Shown: one piece after another, positions 993 through 52,300 of the stretch
Layout: every line of letters starts with the position of its first letter
Numbering within the stretch: position 1 is the stretch's first letter
Origin: Megalonaias nervosa
Lineage: Eukaryota; Mollusca; Bivalvia; Unionida; Unionidae
Assembly (NCBI GenBank): GCA_016617855.1
Contig: JAECUM010009726.1
Coordinates: 1-64,000 of the forward strand
DNA: 64,000 nt
Direction of reading: 5' to 3'
Program-made: the position numbers and the translations under genes
The notes under the pieces: generated by a model
Databases searched by the model: none
Seen by the model: only the letters and a program-made list of their open reading frames with translations
What the model was told of the DNA's origin: nothing

Positions 993-1539
993 ATGGATAC
1001 CTGGGAACTTTATTATCTTTTGAACAATAGTTCGTATACTGCTTCTTGGAATCCTGTCGATGAACTACCTCATCGCAAACCTCAAGACCATCAAGCTTAT
1101 GTTATCAACACGGACGACAGTCATCTCCCAGGGACTCACTGGGTTGCCATCTACTTCCCTCAAGAGGATTGCGTGGAATATTTTGATTCGTATGGCTTAC
1201 CCCCTTTGGAAGACGACATCATTGACTTTTATGAGAAGAAATGCCCAGACGACACGATTCAATAATGTGAAATTACAAGGCATAGATTCCATGGTGTGTG
1301 GACAATATTGTGTGTATTTTCTTCATCAACGCAGTCTTGGATATCCTTTAGAACATTTAGTGACTTATTTTGATCGTCACTCTTCTAGAAACGATGAGAA
1401 AATAGATCGATGGTTTTGTGACCATTATAGTTATCTTTTGTCTTTAGCTAGGAAACGTAGTGTACATCAATGGCCTCATGACTTCCATCAATGGAAATCT
1501 CACATGATTTCACAACGTTGTCAACCTTGTCAAAAATAA
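993..1539 (+). pseudogene. Adenain-like cysteine protease of the Maverick/adintovirus element, frame-broken
   Basis: The first 90 codons from the ATG at 993 contain GTHWVAIYFP with a candidate catalytic His (residue 49) and EYFDSYGLPP with the candidate acidic partner (E62 or D65). The frame stops at 1263-1265. The rest continues in the +1 frame from about 1262 to 1539 and carries QGIDSMVCGQYCVYFLHQ, the catalytic Cys box of adenovirus-type proteases. All three catalytic positions are therefore present but split by one frameshift. The family (peptidase C5-like, ULP fold) cleaves capsid precursors during virion maturation. The combined length of about 180 residues is near normal for the family. 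The upstream reading of the second frame (from 1060) is only a shadow of the first. The spacer from 912 to 992 contains an A-run just before the start. Confidence 0.78.
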
Positions 1540-1550
1540 TTTGTTTGATG

Positions 1551-1592
1551 TTACTTGTTACTTGTGACTTATGACTTGTTACTTGTTACTTG
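1551..1592 (+). repeat. Short TTACTTG tandem repeat in the protease 3' UTR
   Basis: About six 7-base units of TTACTTG and close variants (TGACTTA) lie between the protease stop and the polyadenylation signal. I see no coding or structural role. Confidence 0.75.
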
Positions 1593-1598
1593 AATAAA
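1593..1598 (+). terminator. Canonical polyadenylation signal for the capsid/protease block
   Basis: AATAAA lies 54 bases after the protease stop. A T/GT-rich stretch follows (TGTGTTTTG, then TGTGTCTGTCG), fitting a cleavage and downstream element. The virion genes therefore seem to use ordinary poly(A) ends, unlike the three genes to the right, which use histone-type ends. Confidence 0.6.
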
Positions 1599-1729
1599 AA
1601 TGCTGTGTTTTGAAAAAATGTGTCTGTCGTTTGTTTTCACAAAAAAACACTGTGAATATATGCTTTTTGACTTCTTTCTATCCCTCATCATGACATTCGC
1701 TATCATAGCGTTCCGACACTAAAACCGAG

Positions 1730-1790
1730 TAGGGATGTTTTCTATCGCGTCCGCGTTTGAACCATATAAAGCGGTGGGTCTCCAGTCTGA
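1730..1790 (+). promoter_or_regulatory. Shared promoter cassette, copy 1
   Basis: Upstream box TAGGGATGTTTTC, then CGCGTCCGCG, then the TATA box ATATAAA (1764-1770). An initiator-like CCAGTCTGA follows 19-20 bases after the TATA. The same order and spacing recur at 2491 and 3781. The in-frame ATG at 1735 lies inside the upstream box, before the TATA, so it should not be the translation start. Confidence 0.65.
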
Positions 1791-1815
1791 CCATTCACTG
1801 TTGACTCGTCAACCT

Positions 1816-2184
1816 ATGAAGATGCCTTCCAGACTAGCCCAGCTGAACGAAGCTTACGTCAATTTACATCGTGTCAGGCTAAACCTGATACCGAAGCCTG
1901 AAGAAATAGAGAATGTTAGGATGCTCTCCATAACCCAAGACCTGATAGAAGAGATGTTTAGAGAGGAAATTAAAAAAGAACAAGAAGAATGGACTGAGAA
2001 ATACAGACTTCAGAAGAAGCAGAGAGAAGAACAACAACAACAGCAGCAGCAGCAGCAAGAACCAGACAGAGGTTTTGTGGACTGTCGAGTAGACATCAAA
2101 GAATTCTCTTTCTCTTTTCGCAGAAGCAGACCGTATCCAATAGGAAAGCCTACTGCCAGACGGGGACGCAATCTTAGACAGTAA
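1816..2184 (+). CDS. Unknown charged protein with a polyglutamine run (first histone-tailed gene)
   Basis: The longest frame opens at 1735, but that ATG is within the promoter cassette. The ATG at 1816, about 30 bases after the initiator-like site, is the better start and gives 122 residues (a second ATG at 1822 is also possible). An N-terminal helical part contains PSRLAQLNEAYVNLHRVRLN. Then comes a Glu/Lys/Arg coiled-coil-like segment ending in nine glutamines (about residues 74-82), and a basic tail (RRSRPYPIGKPTARRGRNL). I recognise no domain. The N-terminal pattern S-R-L-x-x-L...L...R...L weakly resembles the next gene, and the promoter and 3' end are shared, so duplication is plausible. 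A basic, helical, single-exon product could bind nucleic acid, but nothing proves this. Confidence 0.6.
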   Translation: MKMPSRLAQLNEAYVNLHRVRLNLIPKPEEIENVRMLSITQDLIEEMFREEIKKEQEEWTEKYRLQKKQREEQQQQQQQQQEPDRGFVDCRVDIKEFSFSFRRSRPYPIGKPTARRGRNLRQ

Positions 2185-2223
2185 AAAAAAAGATTGCCAT
2201 TACTTCCGTGAACAAAAAAAAAC

Positions 2224-2260
2224 AGCCCTTTTCAGGGCTACCCAATACTCTCGAAAAGAC
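2224..2260 (+). terminator. Histone-type mRNA 3' stem-loop and downstream element, copy 1
   Basis: AGCCCT (2224-2229), loop TTTC, AGGGCT (2234-2239) forms the 6-bp, 4-nt-loop hairpin of metazoan replication-dependent histone mRNAs. ACCCA follows it. A purine-rich GAAAAGA (2253-2259) begins 14 bases after the stem, where a U7-pairing histone downstream element sits. No AATAAA lies between the stop and the hairpin. The base of the stem is A-T, where histones usually have G-C. Confidence 0.8.
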
Positions 2261-2490
2261 ATACTCATTCAATTTGCCAAAATTTGTAATTAGAAAATAG
2301 AAGTGTGTCTATAAGCACTTTGTTTCTTTTGTCAGTAAAAAAAAATATTTGTGTGTTTGTATGTTTAAAAAAATCACCCTTTGTTTTCTATGTCTTGTCC
2401 AATCGTGTCTGTCTGTGTTTGTAAGTAAAAAGTAAAAAAGTCAACGTGAGTGTTTCTTTTAAGTCCGCGCGTTACATGTGATGGTAAATT
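2261..2490 (+). other. Spacer between the first two histone-tailed genes
   Basis: AT- and GT-rich, with no frame of note. The first part (ATTCAATTTGCCA, then a GTGTG and ATAAGCACTTT stretch) recurs after the next gene at 3183-3240, showing that the 3' flanks were duplicated with the genes. Confidence 0.5.
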
Positions 2491-2558
2491 TGAGTGCTAG
2501 GGAATGTTTACTTTCACGTCCGTGCTTCAAGTATATAAATTGGTGCGATCGTCAGTCT
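2491..2558 (+). promoter_or_regulatory. Shared promoter cassette, copy 2
   Basis: TGAGTGCTAGGGAATGTTT, then TTCACGTCCGTGC, then TATATAAA (2532-2539). The initiator-like TCAGTCTGG starts at 2552. TGAGTG plus the next two boxes match the copy at 3781 closely. The start codon of the next gene is 34 bases downstream of the initiator-like site. Confidence 0.72.
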
Positions 2559-2591
2559 GGTTACCCACGCTGACGTAGCAGCTGCAACAAA

Positions 2592-3113
2592 ATGAGTAGA
2601 CTAACAAAACTACTAGAACTCCAGATGCACCTGGAGCATGCCAGGCGTCTCCTGGATGAGCTGGCTATGGAGGCGGCACAGGAGGAAGCCAGGTTAAAAG
2701 AAGAAGAGAGCAAAAAGAAGAAGGAAGAAGAGAAAGAAAAGAAAAGAGGGATCCTGCCTCACCTCTTCATGAGACCTCAGTGTGAGGTCAAACCTGAGGT
2801 GAGGACACCTGCACAACCACATCCACAACCACAGCCACAGCCACAACCTGTACCAAGGGTCGCTGTCCTCCAGACAGAAAACTGGGAGGAGGAATTGGAA
2901 AGACAGAGGCAAGAGTGGGAGCCTCGACGTCAGCATCCCAGGGTGCTAAATAGAAGAAGAAGGGAACAAGTATTCACTATCCCTCAAACTGAGGAGTGGG
3001 ATAGTGAAGCTAATCAACCTCCCTCTGCGCTCCCAACCACACGCATCAATTGGGAGCAGGACTGGAGCCGGCGATGCGTGTGTGGTGCCCGCCCTGGGAG
3101 ATGTCATCATTAA
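2592..3113 (+). CDS. Unknown charged, proline/glutamine-rich protein (second histone-tailed gene)
   Basis: An intact 173-residue frame whose ATG has A at -3. Residues 1-55 form a strongly charged helix (SRLTKLLELQMHLEHARRLL, then a Glu/Lys block). Residues about 75-88 are a His-Pro/Gln-Pro repeat. Three Trp/Glu-containing stretches follow (ENWEEELERQRQEW, TEEWDSEANQ, INWEQDWSRR), perhaps a degenerate internal repeat. The C-terminus is Cys-rich (CVCGARPGRCHH). No catalytic motif, signal peptide or membrane segment is seen. The gene sits in a complete cassette with TATA promoter and histone-type end. It could be a virion core or host-interaction protein, but I do not recognise it. The antisense frame here is a shadow. 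Confidence 0.62.
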   Translation: MSRLTKLLELQMHLEHARRLLDELAMEAAQEEARLKEEESKKKKEEEKEKKRGILPHLFMRPQCEVKPEVRTPAQPHPQPQPQPQPVPRVAVLQTENWEEELERQRQEWEPRRQHPRVLNRRRREQVFTIPQTEEWDSEANQPPSALPTTRINWEQDWSRRCVCGARPGRCHH

Positions 3114-3141
3114 CCAGGTGCATTTGCAGTTCTAAAAAAAC

Positions 3142-3177
3142 AGCCCTTCTCAGGGCTAACCAGATCTCTAGAAAAGA
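3142..3177 (+). terminator. Histone-type mRNA 3' stem-loop and downstream element, copy 2
   Basis: AGCCCT (3142-3147), loop TCTC, AGGGCT (3152-3157), then CTCTAGAAAAGAGAG with GAAAAGA at 3171-3177, again starting 14 bases after the stem. The loop differs from copy 1 by one pyrimidine change (T to C), which keeps the histone loop pattern. The stop codon is only 28 bases upstream, typical of short histone 3' UTRs. Confidence 0.8.
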
Positions 3178-3246
3178 GAGACTATTCAATTTGCCAGTTT
3201 GTGTGAATGTGAAGTAGTGTGACTATAAACACTCACTTCTTTACTG

Positions 3247-3302
<56 letters not shown>
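3247..3302 (+). repeat. (TG)n microsatellite
   Basis: About 27 uninterrupted TG dinucleotides directly after the second gene's 3' flank. Confidence 0.95.
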
Positions 3303-3304
<2 letters not shown>

Positions 3305-3306
<2 letters not shown>

Positions 3307-3775
3307 ATGCGCGTTCGTTGGTGTGAATAGTATATGGGTGTGTGTTTTTCTTCTCTTCCTTCGTTGGTGTGATAGTATAATGTGTGTTTTATGTTTGCTC
3401 GTTCGTTGGTGTGGATAGTATATTGTATGTTTTATGCTTGCTCGTTCGTTAGTGAGGATAGTATATTGTGTGTTTTATGCTTGCTCGTTAGTTGGTGTGG
3501 ATAGTATATAATATGTGTTTTATGCTTGCTCGTTCATTGGTGTGGATAGTATATAATATGTTTTTTTCTCATCCAGATTGTGTGGATGGTATGTTTGTGT
3601 GTTTTATGCTTGCTCGTTCGTTGGTGAGGATAGTATATTTGTGTGTTTTATGCTTGCTGGTTCGTTGGTGAGGATAGTATATTGTGTGTTTTATGCTTGC
3701 TCGTTCGTTGGTGAGGATAGTATATTTGTGTGTTTTATGCTTGCTCGTCCGTTGGTGAGGATAGTAAATTGTATG
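3305..3775 (+). repeat. Minisatellite of about nine 43-50-base units between virus-like genes
   Basis: Units carry the core CGTTGGTGWGGATAGTATAT followed by TGTGTTTTATGCTTGCTCG. Copies at the right are most alike; those at the left are more diverged. A 66-codon frame from 3578 reads through three units and has the repeat's own periodicity (CVFYACSFVGEDSIF), so it is not a gene. The array separates the second gene from the third promoter cassette. Confidence 0.88.
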
Positions 3776-3780
3776 TGAAG

Positions 3781-3848
3781 TGAGTGTAAGGGATGTTTTC
3801 GTTCACGTCCGTGCTCCACGGATATAGAGCAGAGCGCTCGTCATTCAC
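3781..3848 (+). promoter_or_regulatory. Shared promoter cassette, copy 3
   Basis: TGAGTGTAAGGGATGTTTTC, then TTCACGTCCGTGC, then GATATAGAG in the TATA position (3821-3829). TCATTCACG lies about 20 bases further on, where copies 1 and 2 have CAGTC. The TATA box is weaker than in the other copies. Confidence 0.68.
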
Positions 3849-3871
3849 GCCATTCTACACAGAATAAAAAA

Positions 3872-4483
3872 ATGAGCAGCAACATGGACTTGTTCAACAG
3901 ATTAAAAGACATTTATTATTGGATAATGGATGGAGTCTACGTGGTTGAAAGGATTGAAAAGGAATGTAGCTATCAAGTTACGAAAGACTTTTTAATCACT
4001 CAAGTCACCAGCATAAAACTAGCCAAGGATCTAGTAGCAGGTATGACAGAGGAGCAAGTGGAGAAGATTAGAGGTTTCATTCAACCTAAATATGTGAGAG
4101 TAGGCTCCTTGAAACAGGCTCTTGATCATGTCATACAAGTGAGCTCCTTTCTACAAGACATATGCAATTTCACCGAGTGGTCTTTTGTCAAAAACTTGGG
4201 CTTAGACTCTTTAAAAAAAGCTGAAGACCTGATGAGAAAAGTACTGGAGGAAGAGGTGAAGAAAATCAAAGAAACCTGGAGAAAAGAAGAGAACTGGACA
4301 AAAGAGAAAAAGGAGAAGGAAAACAGAAAGAAGAAAGAAGATTTTGAGAAATTAAACAAAAATTGGATAAAAGTGCAAGAGAAATTTAGAGCTATGGGTC
4401 ATCCTGACTGGATGCCAGAAAAAGAAAAGAAGAAAGGAATTATTCAAAAAGTCAGGAACTGGTGGAAGAACTGGAGAAGATAA
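3872..4483 (+). CDS. Unknown lysine-rich helical protein with a Trp/Arg-rich cationic tail (third histone-tailed gene)
   Basis: An intact 203-residue frame from an ATG in an A-rich context, 30 bases after the initiator-like site. Residues 1-125 look like a globular helical domain with Trp and Tyr (LKDIYYWIMDGVYVVERIEK; WSFVKNLGLDSLKKAEDLM). Residues about 130-165 are an almost uninterrupted Lys/Glu helix. The last part (GIIQKVRNWWKNWRR) is a short cationic amphipathic segment with three Trp. I recognise no family. The tail resembles membrane-active or nucleic-acid-binding peptides only in composition. The gene has its own promoter and the most canonical of the three histone-type 3' ends. The opposite-strand frame is a shadow of the Lys-rich part. 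Confidence 0.62.
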   Translation: MSSNMDLFNRLKDIYYWIMDGVYVVERIEKECSYQVTKDFLITQVTSIKLAKDLVAGMTEEQVEKIRGFIQPKYVRVGSLKQALDHVIQVSSFLQDICNFTEWSFVKNLGLDSLKKAEDLMRKVLEEEVKKIKETWRKEENWTKEKKEKENRKKKEDFEKLNKNWIKVQEKFRAMGHPDWMPEKEKKKGIIQKVRNWWKNWRR

Positions 4484-4503
4484 AAGAAGAAGAAGAACCC
4501 AAA

Positions 4504-4540
4504 GGCCCTTTTCAGGGCCACTTCCAATGCCTCGAAAAGA
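4504..4540 (+). terminator. Histone-type mRNA 3' stem-loop and downstream element, copy 3 (canonical)
   Basis: ACCCAAA precedes GGCCCT (4504-4509), loop TTTC, AGGGCC (4514-4519), then ACTTCCA and CTCGAAAAGA (GAAAAGA at 4534-4540). This agrees with the metazoan histone stem-loop consensus at the conserved stem and loop positions, including the flanking A-rich 5' side. The downstream element begins 15 bases after the stem. It lies 20 bases after the stop codon. Confidence 0.86.
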
Positions 4541-4573
4541 TCTTAATTTTCATTTTGTCTCCACCCTAAACGA

Positions 4574-4650
4574 ATATATATAAAACCCTTCCTCTACTAA
4601 AAAACACGAACGCTCTTGATTCGTGTTTGTCTATAGCCCTCTCTCAGGTA
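4574..4650 (+). other. TATA box, 9-bp hairpin and possible decayed fourth histone-type stem-loop
   Basis: ATATATATAAAA (4574-4585) is followed by a perfect 9-bp inverted repeat AAACACGAA / TTCGTGTTT (4602-4610 and 4620-4628, 9-base loop CGCTCTTGA). Then AGCCCTCTCTCAGG (4635-4648) looks like a broken copy of the AGCCCT-TCTC-AGGGCT hairpin. There is no reading frame between TATA and hairpin, so any transcript would be a short non-coding RNA or the unit is a deletion remnant. Confidence 0.35.
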
Positions 4651-4653
4651 GCC

Positions 4654-4703
4654 TGACGTCACAATACTTCTCTTTTTGCTACATTGTTACCAGTGTGACG
4701 TCA
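4654..4703 (+). repeat. Inverted pair of TGACGTCA (CRE-like) palindromes
   Basis: TGACGTCACA (4654-4663) and TGTGACGTCA (4694-4703) form a 10-bp inverted repeat 30 bases apart. Each contains the full 8-bp CREB/ATF palindrome. They lie at the right edge of the virus-like island and could be regulatory sites or part of a terminal repeat. Confidence 0.6.
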
Positions 4704-4763
4704 TGCCACCTGTCGCTTATCGTTATACAAACCCACAGTCTACTAGTCGCCGCTCTACAAAAA

Positions 4764-4914
4764 TTTCCATTGACGCTATACAGGCCCAGGGTGTGCTAGT
4801 CACTCTACCCAATTTTCCATTGACGCTATACAGGCCCAGGGTGTGCTTTTATTTCTTGACGCTATACGGGCCCGGGGGGGGGGGGTCTGTAATGCTAATT
4901 CCCGTTGACGCTAC
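4764..4914 (+). repeat. Short tandem array with TTGACGCTATACAGGCCCAG core at the island edge
   Basis: Two nearly identical 34-base units (starting about 4764 and 4814, period 50) share TTCCATTGACGCTATACAGG and CCCAGGGTGTGCT. Two shorter copies follow (TTGACGCTATACGGGCCCGG at about 4856, GTTGACGCTACGG at about 4904). A run of 12 G is embedded at about 4874. Iterons, a terminal repeat of the element, or host minisatellite are all possible. Confidence 0.7.
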
Positions 4915-4990
4915 GGTAACCCCTATTACTACTGATATCTGCAGATACAGATGGTTGCGCTCTACAGTTTCATATTTTGCATATGGTTAA

Positions 4991-6229
4991 AGAAAAATAA
5001 TTTCTTTGGGTTTCCTTACTGGTTATACCAGCTATAAAAAAAGATCGTATATGTTAAATATTGTTAAATAACCATTAATTTTCTTTATTTTGGTGTATGA
5101 TTGTTGTTGAGTATACAGCTTGGCCTTACTTCAGATGTGCATCTCTAAAATAAATGCTAGCTCTAATTGGTCAGTTTCACTTCCTGGACTTCAGAGGTAA
5201 ATTGTAAAAATAAAAGCGGAGAACTTTTTTTTACATTTTATGTATTTGGTAATTCATTCATTGCAGTTCAGAAGCTGGTATTGTCTAGCCTGGTAAAATT
5301 CATTTTCCCTATTTTGAATAACTGCTAAAAATAGTGTACTATAGACTAATTCAGGCAGAGTTTTTAGCATAAGGGAGCAGTCATTGTAGTTAGCAATGAG
5401 CTTAGATCATGTTCAATTCCCACAAGTACAATATCCAAAGAAATTTCAGTTCAGCAACTCAGATTAAGATAGAAATATGCCAATTTGCTCTCCACTGTGC
5501 ATGTTGCAAATTTAAACAACTTCATCTTTCACCGGCCACTCTCTCAGACGTTCATAATTTCTGTAGAGCTCCCCCAGATACAGTGATCGGAGGTCGACTC
5601 TCTAGAATAGAATCCTGAATCTTCAGAGCTTAGGTTATTCCGATTGATTTAGCAGAAGACTTAAATATGGCGATGGGGAACATTTGACAAGAGGTTGGTG
5701 TTGATCTATTACAGTTATTTAAGAGGACTCTGAAACCCATGAACTAACATTGCTACGATTTTGTACCAGTTGATGTGTACGTTTGCAGCATGAATTAATC
5801 ACCATCATTTAAAGGAAGTAAGGATGAAATTCATTTCCTGAATTGAGTGAAATTGAACAGGGTGTTGGTTGTTCAGAATAATTAGATGGATAGTTGTACA
5901 GGCTATAGAGGATACATACAGAGAATCGTATATTCAGATATTAAGTTCTCTGTTTGCATTTTTTTTTGTTTATACGTGAATGTATGTTTGAGAGTCCTCT
6001 TTGAGAGTTTATTAGAGGTCTTCTGTCTCCCCCCCCAAAAAAAATATCCTAATGTGAAATATTTCAGAATCACTCACAAGTTGAACAGTTTAACTATGAA
6101 CATTTTGTTCCCAGCTAATATAGTTTCCCCAAAATGATGGGCCAAAACCTGTTCCACTTGAAAAGAAAAGTCGTTGTAGATCAACATCCTTTTAAAATTC
6201 TACAGGTCCATTCTGGAGAAACTTGTCAG
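4991..6229. other. AT-rich non-coding DNA right of the virus-like island
   Basis: Composition and codon structure change here to the AT-rich, frame-poor DNA that fills the next 28 kb. Only chance frames below 85 codons. No repeat copy recognised. Confidence 0.5.
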
Positions 6230-49349: not shown

Positions 49350-52300
49350 TAGTCCCCCCACATGTCCAAGCATGGCCTTCAGAACTGTAAGTCCTGGTGC
49401 ATAGCATATTTCCTTCCAGCTGCTTCCCCAGTCAGCAAAGTCAGAGAGATTAATGATTGGATGCCTGAATATGACTCTGAGAATGCTAAGATTTTATTCA
49501 ACATTTTCATTCCACAAGACACATCCCACCACCCACAATACTGAATTCATGGAGCTAAATACAAATTTATCAGTGCTTAATAAGTATGTCCCACTTTTTT
49601 TTAATAAAGTGGATAAGAATGCGTTTCTTGTCACATAGATGCTGGTTTGGAACATTATCACCACATCTTCAGTGTTGGATTTGGCCTCATTGGCGTTTTT
49701 CCAATTGGTGTAAAAATCAGCCAACTCCCATGCCTTTGAGCTGATAACCTGAATTGCTTGGGTCATTAAAGGAGCAGTTCACTGTTCAGTGGTGACTGCA
49801 TTGACTGTCTCTTCCAGTCTGGACTTGGCTGCGTGGGTTCAAGTCTAGGATTTCGGCTAATGTGGATATGTGAGAAAGCTTGCCAATAGCTTCTCGTGGG
49901 TCAGTGGTTCTTTCCGGAGATTTCCCGGTTTCTTCCTCCACCATTAATACTGGCCACCATGTATAGCCTATCGTGTGCTGAAAAATGGCGTTAAGCCCCA
50001 CAACAACAACAACAACAACCAGTCTGGACTTGGTGCACTGTTACAAGCATTTGCATATTTTGCTAAAACCGCATCAAACTCTGGCTTTAAGTATTTGGCT
50101 CACCAATGCTGTTTAGGAGTAAAATTGAAGAAGTTTGAAGGCAGGCAGCTCAAGAACTACCCCTCCAACTTCCTTATACACCCATATTCTTATTTAAAAG
50201 CCCACTGTCCCTGCCACAGTAGAGGGACAATATGCGAGCAAAACAAATTGAATCTTAAGTTCAGATCTCAGCCTTATGCCAGGAGACAACAGCCAAACCA
50301 ATCTAGGAGGCCCCCTTACAGGAGAGGTAAGAAACCAAGTTTCTCCACTCCCATGCGTCCTGTCTCCCACCACTGACTTAACATCCTCACCACTCACAGA
50401 CAGTCTGCATCAGACTCCTGCAGTTCCAATCATGCTGGAGCAACCTATTTCCATGAAACGAATGGTTGATCTAAGGAAGTTTGGAGTGGATTGGATTTTG
50501 TTTATCCAAACCCTCCTCTTTCTTCCACTCCCCTTCTAATGGATGTGCTGTCAGATCAGAAGTAGGACAGTATTCTTCAAGGGGAGATGCAACTGCTCAT
50601 AGAGGAATGGGCAGTGGATATTGTGAGAAAAACCACAATCTCTGGGAGTCTATTCATGGCTGTTATCAAAAAGGCCAGTGACTTGTTGAGGTCAATCATA
50701 GACTAGAGTCACCCCAACAAGTTCATTCTTCCACTGCGGTTCAAGCTGGAGACAGTGAGAGCTATTAAACTCTCCATCCAAAGGGATGATTATGCCATCA
50801 GCCTTGATCTCACAGATGCCTACTTTCATGTCCCTATTTACCCAGCATTGCAAAAGTTTCTTTATTTTCTTACCGCCACAAAGATTACCAATTATGAGTC
50901 CTTCAATTTGGTCAGAATATCAGCCTCTGGGTCTTTACTAAATTATGGATTGCATCAAATTGAATTTCAGTTGATTTTCTCTACAGCAATGGTGACCTAT
51001 CTGGATGATCTCCAGAATTATATAAGTTCCATTCTCCTCAAGGGCAGAAATGATCTCCAATCACATTTGAATAATCTCTGTTTTCTCGTGAACTGGGAAA
51101 AATCTGACCTTCACCCATCTGGTGTTTTGTCCACCTGGGTTTGGAGTCTATAACCAATCTCAGTCTTGTTGTCATCATTATGTCCATTTCCTGTGGATTG
51201 GTGACCTCGTTTCCAACAGGACTTGATTTCAGCACGAGAGTTCTTACCACTCCTTAGGTTACTCAGTGCTGCTCGTTACAAATGACTTTGCTGGGTCATG
51301 ATGCCCTTTTCCATTCCACTTGACCAAAAGGTCAATATCATGAATAAGGTATGATTATTCCTGTATCAGTGATGCAACTACAGTTGGCTCACGACAGGAA
51401 TTCCATGGTAGAAACACCAGCAGGAAGTGACAATATCTACAGATACCAGTACATACAGCTGGGGAGCCCACTTGTTGCTGGGCTTTAATATGGTCATCAG
51501 CAGGGAACCAAGGAAGCTGCCTCTTTACTTCAGCCTTCTTGAGATGAAAGCTGTCACAATCACCTTTTAGTTAAACACTGTGGGAAATCAGTGCTGATTA
51601 TGTCAAACAACTAAACACAGAGGGTCACCAAATTGCCCAGCCTGGGTGTGCTTGTTTGGCAGTTTCTTCATTGGTGCAGCCAACTGCAGATCAACACAAA
51701 TCTGACACTTTTTTGGCAGACCAAGTGTCATGGCCGATGTTGTCCACAGAAAGGGTCAAGTTATCCATGCAGAATGGTCCCTTCATCCATTAGGTTGTTT
51801 TTTTTTTAATTTGTGCACTATAGGGCATCCGATGATCAACCTTTTTATGACAAGTTATCTAGCTTTGTCTCATCATTTCCAGACCCAGAAGCTTGGGCTG
51901 TTGATTCACATAAGTTGGGAGAGGTTGTGGGGCTTTGCTTACCCACTATCCCCCCCACTCGGGTCTTGACTACCAAATTAATACAGAATTGCAAGATTAT
52001 TCTGATAACCTGTTTCAGATGGGACAAGTCCTTGGTCAATAGTCTACTCAAATCTAGTGATAGACCTACCCAGGATGATTATGTCCAAAACTGAATCTTC
52101 TCAAACAACCATGGTGACAGTTGTTCCACCCCTGTCCAGACTATCTACTCCTTCATGCCTGGCTCTTGTTAAGACAGCCATCTGTGAGAAGAAATTTAGA
52201 CCTTCATTGTGGAGAGGATCTCAAGAGCGAGAAGGCCATCCACTCTGAAGGCTAGTGAGGGAAATTGGTGTGGTTTCAGGAACTGGTGTTGAGTCAGTAA

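Follow-up and report, generated by a model that had tools for sequence, protein, structure and literature searches.

Metazoan replication-dependent histone mRNAs are processed by a pathway in which, according to the accessible parts of two papers, SLBP binds a 3′ hairpin and the U7 small nuclear ribonucleoprotein (snRNP) pairs with a histone downstream element (HDE) (PMC6303110; PMC9756948), and cleavage occurs a few nucleotides past the stem, classically after ACCCA (PMC6303110). Here, we analyzed a 64,000-nucleotide window of the bivalve Megalonaias nervosa (GenBank assembly GCA_016617855.1, contig JAECUM010009726.1, positions 1 to 64,000 of the forward strand), which holds one end of a copy of an abundant Maverick/Polinton element. 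Our reading, to which we assign a probability of roughly 85%, is that at least five gene positions of this element carry the 3′-end signals of host histone mRNAs and would likely yield cleaved, non-polyadenylated mRNAs of S phase, with the protease gene of the element probably polyadenylated. The DNA directly shows the signals, where they lie and how well they are kept, that a host H2A gene ends in the identical signal, and how the protease gene differs.

Histone-type 3′ ends in the window and in the host

Three non-histone frames of the window each end in a perfect hairpin, with a 6-bp stem and a 4-nt loop, that is followed by GAAAAGA. Their features are as follows.

1816..2184, plus strand: gene 1 frame, 122 aa, with a basic C-terminus (open reading frame, ORF; a further in-frame ATG lies at 1735)
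2224..2239, plus strand: gene 1 histone-type stem-loop AGCCCT-TTTC-AGGGCT, then ACCCA (Rfam model RF00032, 31.9 bits)
2253..2259, plus strand: gene 1 GAAAAGA, resembling an HDE (same word in host H2A)
2592..3113, plus strand: gene 2 frame, 173 aa (ORF)
3142..3157, plus strand: gene 2 histone-type stem-loop AGCCCT-TCTC-AGGGCT, with loop TCTC (RF00032, 22.6 bits)
3171..3177, plus strand: gene 2 GAAAAGA, HDE-like (pattern match)
3872..4483, plus strand: gene 3 frame, 203 aa (ORF; all-helical by prediction)
4504..4519, plus strand: gene 3 histone-type stem-loop GGCCCT-TTTC-AGGGCC, located where the terminal inverted repeat has its inner boundary (RF00032, 33.3 bits)
4534..4540, plus strand: gene 3 GAAAAGA, HDE-like (pattern match)

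The hairpins begin 39, 28, and 20 nt past the stop codons of genes 1, 2, and 3, respectively, and GAAAAGA starts at the 14th, 14th, and 15th base past the stem. An initial annotation of this DNA had described the same three hairpins, the same spacing, and the absence of AATAAA upstream; the first two were exact at the coordinates above, and the third held when both AATAAA and ATTAAA were sought over the 150 nt before each hairpin. The cleavage context of gene 1 also supports the reading, because ACCCA directly follows the stem, as in the histone mRNAs described in the accessible part of PMC6303110.

Comparison with host genes identified the kind of signal. A histone family search of the host genome gave 11 matches, with a histone-type hairpin at two loci. 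The first, an H2A gene (L097), has GGCCCTTTTCAGGGCC with GAAAAGA 12 nt later and scored 37.8 bits with RF00032, whereas the second, an H2B-like frame (L094), has GGCCCTTTTCAGGGCC with TAAAAGA 13 nt later and scored 30.7 bits. The latter may be a pseudogene, because its frame lacks the usual stop and reads through the hairpin. Since all 16 nt of the hairpin, and GAAAAGA as well, recur in host H2A, the signals of the element are histone-type, as had been proposed from the letters alone, and the match makes cleaved, non-polyadenylated mRNAs likely for genes 1–6 (genes 4–6 are described below). An SLBP domain (PF15247) matched contig C954 of the host genome twice (E 1.9e-15 and 1.2e-6), which we read as two exons. 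None of the 11 histone matches is obviously a canonical gene of an H3/H4 cluster, and the assembly may lack the replication-dependent clusters, or the search may have overlooked them. A vertebrate-like hairpin pattern had one match in the genome, with no histone frame beside it.

Giant viruses have hairpin-linked poly(A) sites, and hairpins that lie just past the stop codon might likewise be generic viral terminators unrelated to histones. We regard this explanation as extremely improbable. The stem and loop are exactly of the histone type and are accompanied by an A-rich 5′ flank and an HDE; the best element copies (37.0 and 36.0 bits) score like host histone genes on RF00032; and the protease gene of the same element has no hairpin.

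Pattern searches covered the genome of the window, 2.19 Gb in 54,709 contigs. The strict pattern of hairpin plus GAAAAGA had 10,585 exact matches (5,233 + 5,352) and the backward control had 1 + 0, which rules out chance as the source of the hairpins. A looser statistic for the window, in which the 16-nt hairpin pattern has three mismatch-free matches and shuffled windows had a mean of 0.91 matches with up to three mismatches, is weak because 10 of 100 shuffles reached three.

Recurrence and conservation across copies of the element

The initial annotation had called the island virus-derived, and its identity as a Maverick/Polinton rests on frames in other copies, five of which were sampled for domain content as pieces of 2.5–3 kb. 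An integrase fragment with a chromodomain is encoded in L074 (Chromo, 1.9e-9, above its cut-off; rve, 2.7e-5 and 24.8 bits, under its cut-off of 32.6), PolB in L076 (DNA_pol_B_2, 3.4e-15), and a BIR (inhibitor-of-apoptosis) frame in L076 by Pfam, with a BIR-like frame in L075 recognized by eye. Two of the frames that may encode capsid proteins or an FtsK-type ATPase (L073, 1429–2373; L075, 1156–1602) had no Pfam match. Terminal inverted repeats are ~91% identical over 279 nt between both ends of the C207 copy. Searches of viral contigs with gene 3, the protease, and a protease alignment found no relatives, and two hairpin-plus-HDE patterns found 2 + 2 stretches in such contigs, of which the first pair has frames that look phage-like or non-animal by eye and was taken as chance.

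The design recurs at more gene positions than were first noted. Genes 1, 2, and 3/5 lie at one end of the element and genes 4 and 6 at the other, and each of these at least five positions ends in a hairpin plus GAAAAGA. Gene 4 (76 aa in L006) was found at the other end of the C16 copy, and gene 6 (209 aa) adjoins it, divergent and inward-facing. Gene 5 is a different frame that occupies the gene 3 position in L039, L048, and L049, where the hairpin and GAAAAGA again follow. The outward-facing signals of the C16 copy lie ~20 kb apart (229575, 230657, and 231591 on the minus strand and 249283 on the plus strand). Five middle pieces of the element were scanned and had no hairpin with an HDE.

In the terminal genes, the signal coincides with the inner boundary of the terminal repeat; the repeat starts ~4 nt ahead of the hairpin in C207, and in C16 the distance is ~10 nt. 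The corresponding repeat of the window copy is:

4500..4935, no strand assigned: right terminal inverted repeat, approximate (BLAST from 4484 against the opposite end of copy L036; 91% over 436 nt)

Within this repeat, positions 4770–4877 hold repeated 22-nt units like TTGACGCTATACAGGCCCAGGG. The placement in the two terminal genes would suit hairpins that act as DNA elements of the terminal repeat, in integrase action, replication, or packaging, rather than as RNA signals. A role confined to the DNA of the terminal repeat was rejected, however, because genes 1, 2, and 6 are internal and also carry the signal, which in the copies listed reads in gene direction shortly past the stop codon. The tolerance of G-U pairs, expected for RNA, and the same hairpin plus GAAAAGA in host H2A also speak against this alternative, which we judge very improbable.

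Conservation was assessed at gene ends that had been sampled independently of their own hairpins. Twenty of 29 gene 2 places, taken from the genome pattern matches, were extracted with their surroundings, so the ends of genes 1 and 3/5 came along irrespective of their own hairpins. Gene 1 was recognizable in 14 of the 20 places and had a hairpin (two or fewer mismatches) in 12 of these, 10 with 6/6 pairs; gene 3/5 was also recognizable in 14 of 20 and had a hairpin in all 14, 13 with 6/6 pairs. Gene 6 was present in 12 copies, and 6/6 pairs were kept in six of the nine that were counted, L046 being left out for lack of room and L086 and L092 because they had been picked by their own hairpin. 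For genes 1, 3/5, and 6 combined, 37 gene ends were sampled independently of their hairpins, and the stem is fully paired at 29 of them. The hairpin is also the best-kept part of the 3′ region. Pairwise identity, for gene 1 and gene 3/5, respectively, is 0.93 and 0.90 in the gap-free hairpin; downstream it is 0.87 and 0.83 over the first 21 nt, 0.77 and 0.68 at 22–50 nt, and 0.70 and 0.49 farther on, whereas upstream it is 0.83 and 0.70–0.74.

Sequence changes within the stems preserve pairing. Compensatory pairs occur as GGCCAT..ATGGCC in L053 and as G-C versus A-U at pair 1; pair 3 of gene 6 varies among C-G, U-G, and U-A; and there are several G-U pairs among the hairpins. In 34 hairpins, 201 of 204 cells pair, compared to 198.0 when the 3′ letters were shuffled within genes (15 of 2000 shuffles reached 201) and 190.6 in a pooled shuffle (0 of 2000), a tally that is inflated because its eight gene 6 hairpins, including L086 and L092, were preselected for full pairing. 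At the 3′ end of gene 3 in L061, the loop is GAAA instead of TTTC and the stem is intact, as if flipped by a DNA inversion.

The intact frames of genes 1–4 are under purifying selection. Pairwise dN/dS, calculated as a ratio of means, is 0.23, 0.21, 0.23, and 0.25 for genes 1, 2, 3, and 4, respectively, based on 12 of 19, 9 of 28, 8 of 20, and 8 of 13 copies with intact frames, after 3, 15, 10, and 0 pairs with dS outside 0.02–1 were dropped. Median dS among the intact frames is 0.45–0.83. Gene 1 has 12 homologues in the protein collection, the best with 90% identity, and gene 3 has seven, which are 53–67% identical to their query, the L050 copy; for both genes, homologues occur on short public contigs. 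No Pfam family exceeded its cut-off for genes 1–4 or 6, and there was no core or linker histone match for genes 1, 2, 3, 4, and 6, the genes covered by that scan. Gene 3 is predicted to be all-helical (AF2 pLDDT 82 for the residues encoded from 3884), and its model had no significant match in the PDB (best E 0.04).

These comparisons bear on the possibility that the signals go back to one captured histone 3′ end, multiplied by gene duplication and rising copy number alone, and are now a fossil without a present role. In favor of this history, genes 1 and 2 have similar flanks (84% over 50 nt), decay is common among the copies, and the upstream flank of gene 1 is itself fairly well kept (0.83). 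A fossil would not be expected to fare as the hairpin has, however, for it is better kept than its flanks despite the median dS of the intact genes, and its compensatory and wobble changes maintain pairing. We therefore consider this history quite improbable and prefer the reading in which the signals are in use.

Two probable kinds of mRNA end and observations against the reading

The protease gene, which adjoins genes 1–3 in the window, provides a contrast within the same elements.

993..1539, plus strand: adenain-like protease gene, contrast gene without a hairpin; its frame is split (broken) in the window copy
1593..1598, plus strand: AATAAA, an ordinary poly(A) signal, 53 nt past the protease stop

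A hairpin was found in 0 of 18 protease rows, and 14 of the 18 have AATAAA or ATTAAA at 41–56 nt past the final sense codon. The four rows with no such signal are L004 and L005 (one copy), L062, and L071, which is truncated. Because the protease gene lacks the hairpin and usually has a poly(A) signal, the element seems to end its mRNAs in two ways. The protease family has 12 homologues, and His, Asp, Gln, and Cys are invariant in nine aligned sequences; Pfam matched only Peptidase_C5 (E 0.26), in the leading fragment of the split window frame, and had no match in L005. The window copy is evidently partly decayed, because its protease is split over two reading frames, although genes 1–3 beside it are still open.

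Several observations weigh against histone-type processing of these genes. First, the signals are not universal. Neither L053 nor L064 has a hairpin at gene 1, gene 6 has none in L079 or L080, and its hairpin is cut in L083; among 26 ends not chosen by GAAAAGA, just 19 have this word exactly (9 of 12 for gene 1 and 10 of 14 for gene 3/5). Second, the covariance-model check suggested in the initial annotation had a divided outcome. All three window sites were detected by E-value when RF00032 (Histone3) was run on positions 1500–5000 (31.9 bits, E 1.6e-6; 22.6 bits, E 0.0048; and 33.3 bits, E 4.6e-7, for genes 1–3), but there was no match in the window at the gathering score of 34. Eight chosen further loci gave 13 element matches of 20.0–37.0 bits, of which 11 fall below this cut-off, so that only gene 4 of L006 and gene 3 of L045 pass it among 16 scored element sites. 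Third, on the host side, hairpins were found at just two histone genes, one of them possibly a pseudogene, and no U7 snRNA was identified by two patterns or by the Rfam family, a search made uninformative by the lack of matches in its control genomes. These patterns gave 20 matches compared to 15 in the control and 102 compared to 107; inspection of all 20 candidates of the first pattern, 12 of the 102 of the second, and L014 revealed no convincing U7-like 3′ stem-loop, and the best of the 12 scored 18.9 bits against a cut-off of 34. Fourth, many element copies are decayed. For pairs with dS below 0.3, dN/dS is 0.34 (12 pairs), 0.32 (4), 0.20 (1), and 0.48 (2) for genes 1–4, values that are higher or rest on few pairs, as expected if inserted copies decay. 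Finally, AATAAA or ATTAAA lies ~45 nt past the gene 6 hairpin in 6 of the 11 copies with room for it, and AATAAA occurs at 3863–3868, ~705 nt past the gene 2 hairpin, which makes polyadenylated alternatives possible.

The last of these points raises the question of whether histone-end processing is partial, with the main mRNAs polyadenylated at downstream signals. The gene 6 signals would fit such a scheme, and the accessible part of one paper describes dual processing for human H2AC18 (PMC9756948). Neither AATAAA nor ATTAAA, however, occurs within ~480 nt past any of the three window hairpins. We consider this alternative unlikely, though it deserves to be taken seriously, and continue to favor cleaved, non-polyadenylated mRNAs for the genes with hairpins.

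The window also contains a 42-nt promoter-like repeat common to genes 1–3, with a TATA-type box that reads ATATAAA, TATATAAA, or, less well, ATATAGA.

1731..1772, plus strand: promoter-like repeat with ATATAAA before gene 1 (repeat family search, reference of three copies; the promoter role is putative)
2500..2541, plus strand: promoter-like repeat upstream of gene 2, with TATATAAA (71% match with the reference copy)
3789..3830, plus strand: promoter-like repeat before gene 3, with ATATAGA replacing the TATA box (74% match with the reference copy)

At the core of all three repeats is a near-palindrome, CACGTCCGTG / CGCGTCCGCG. Genes 2 and 3 are separated by a long GT run (3249–3302) and an array of ~43-nt units (3337–3770). 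Elsewhere in the window, a frame at 50707–51153 resembles a reverse transcriptase fragment by eye.

Proposed use of the host pathway and comparison with known systems

How might the element benefit from such ends? We think it reasonably likely, if less firmly held than the reading of the signals, that it mimics histone mRNAs, expressing early or accessory genes through SLBP and U7 in S phase and structural genes through polyadenylation, and that these genes would be the first such non-histone protein-coding set in metazoans. The genes with hairpins are taken as early or accessory because they have no recognizable structural or replication domains. In this model, SLBP would bind the element hairpin and the U7 snRNP would recognize the GAAAAGA downstream element; cleavage at a CA-type site would leave an mRNA without a poly(A) tail; and production and stability of the mRNA would rise in S phase with the histone pathway. 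Accessory, probably early, proteins would thereby be tied to the phase of host replication that a PolB-encoding element may exploit, and at least the protease would remain polyadenylated through its ordinary poly(A) signal. If this model is correct, the element would let nature itself show how far the 3′ end alone accounts for the S-phase control of an mRNA, would suggest a way for an integrating DNA virus to link its genes to host replication, and would raise the question of whether histone supply suffers from such a large number of additional SLBP/U7 sites.

In the accessible parts of the open-licence literature, we found no account of histone-type 3′ ends outside histone genes, whether in Mavericks, in adintoviruses, or elsewhere. 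The 3′ ends described here resemble those of metazoan replication-dependent histone genes in having a stem-loop of 6 bp and 4 nt, an A-rich 5′ flank, CA a few nucleotides past the stem, a purine-rich element 13–14 nt past the stem, single-exon frames, and no AATAAA shortly upstream. Unlike histone genes, they belong to frames whose proteins have no histone family match and lie in a mobile, virus-like element with thousands of signal copies. That element in turn resembles Maverick/Polinton elements and Adintoviridae in its integrase fragment and chromodomain, PolB, adenain-like protease, BIR frame, terminal inverted repeats, and the ~20 kb between outward signals in C16. Human H2AC18, as far as the accessible part of PMC9756948 describes it, shares with gene 6 a hairpin, an HDE, and a nearby poly(A) signal; unlike gene 6, it is a histone gene, and its poly(A) signal and HDE overlap. 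A viral RNA also meets host SLBP in SARS-CoV-2, whose frameshift RNA is bound by this protein according to the accessible part of PMC12166091, but that case concerns ribosomal frameshifting rather than mRNA 3′ ends. Both components, the histone-type 3′ end and the Maverick/Polinton element, are of known kinds, and their combination appears to be new.

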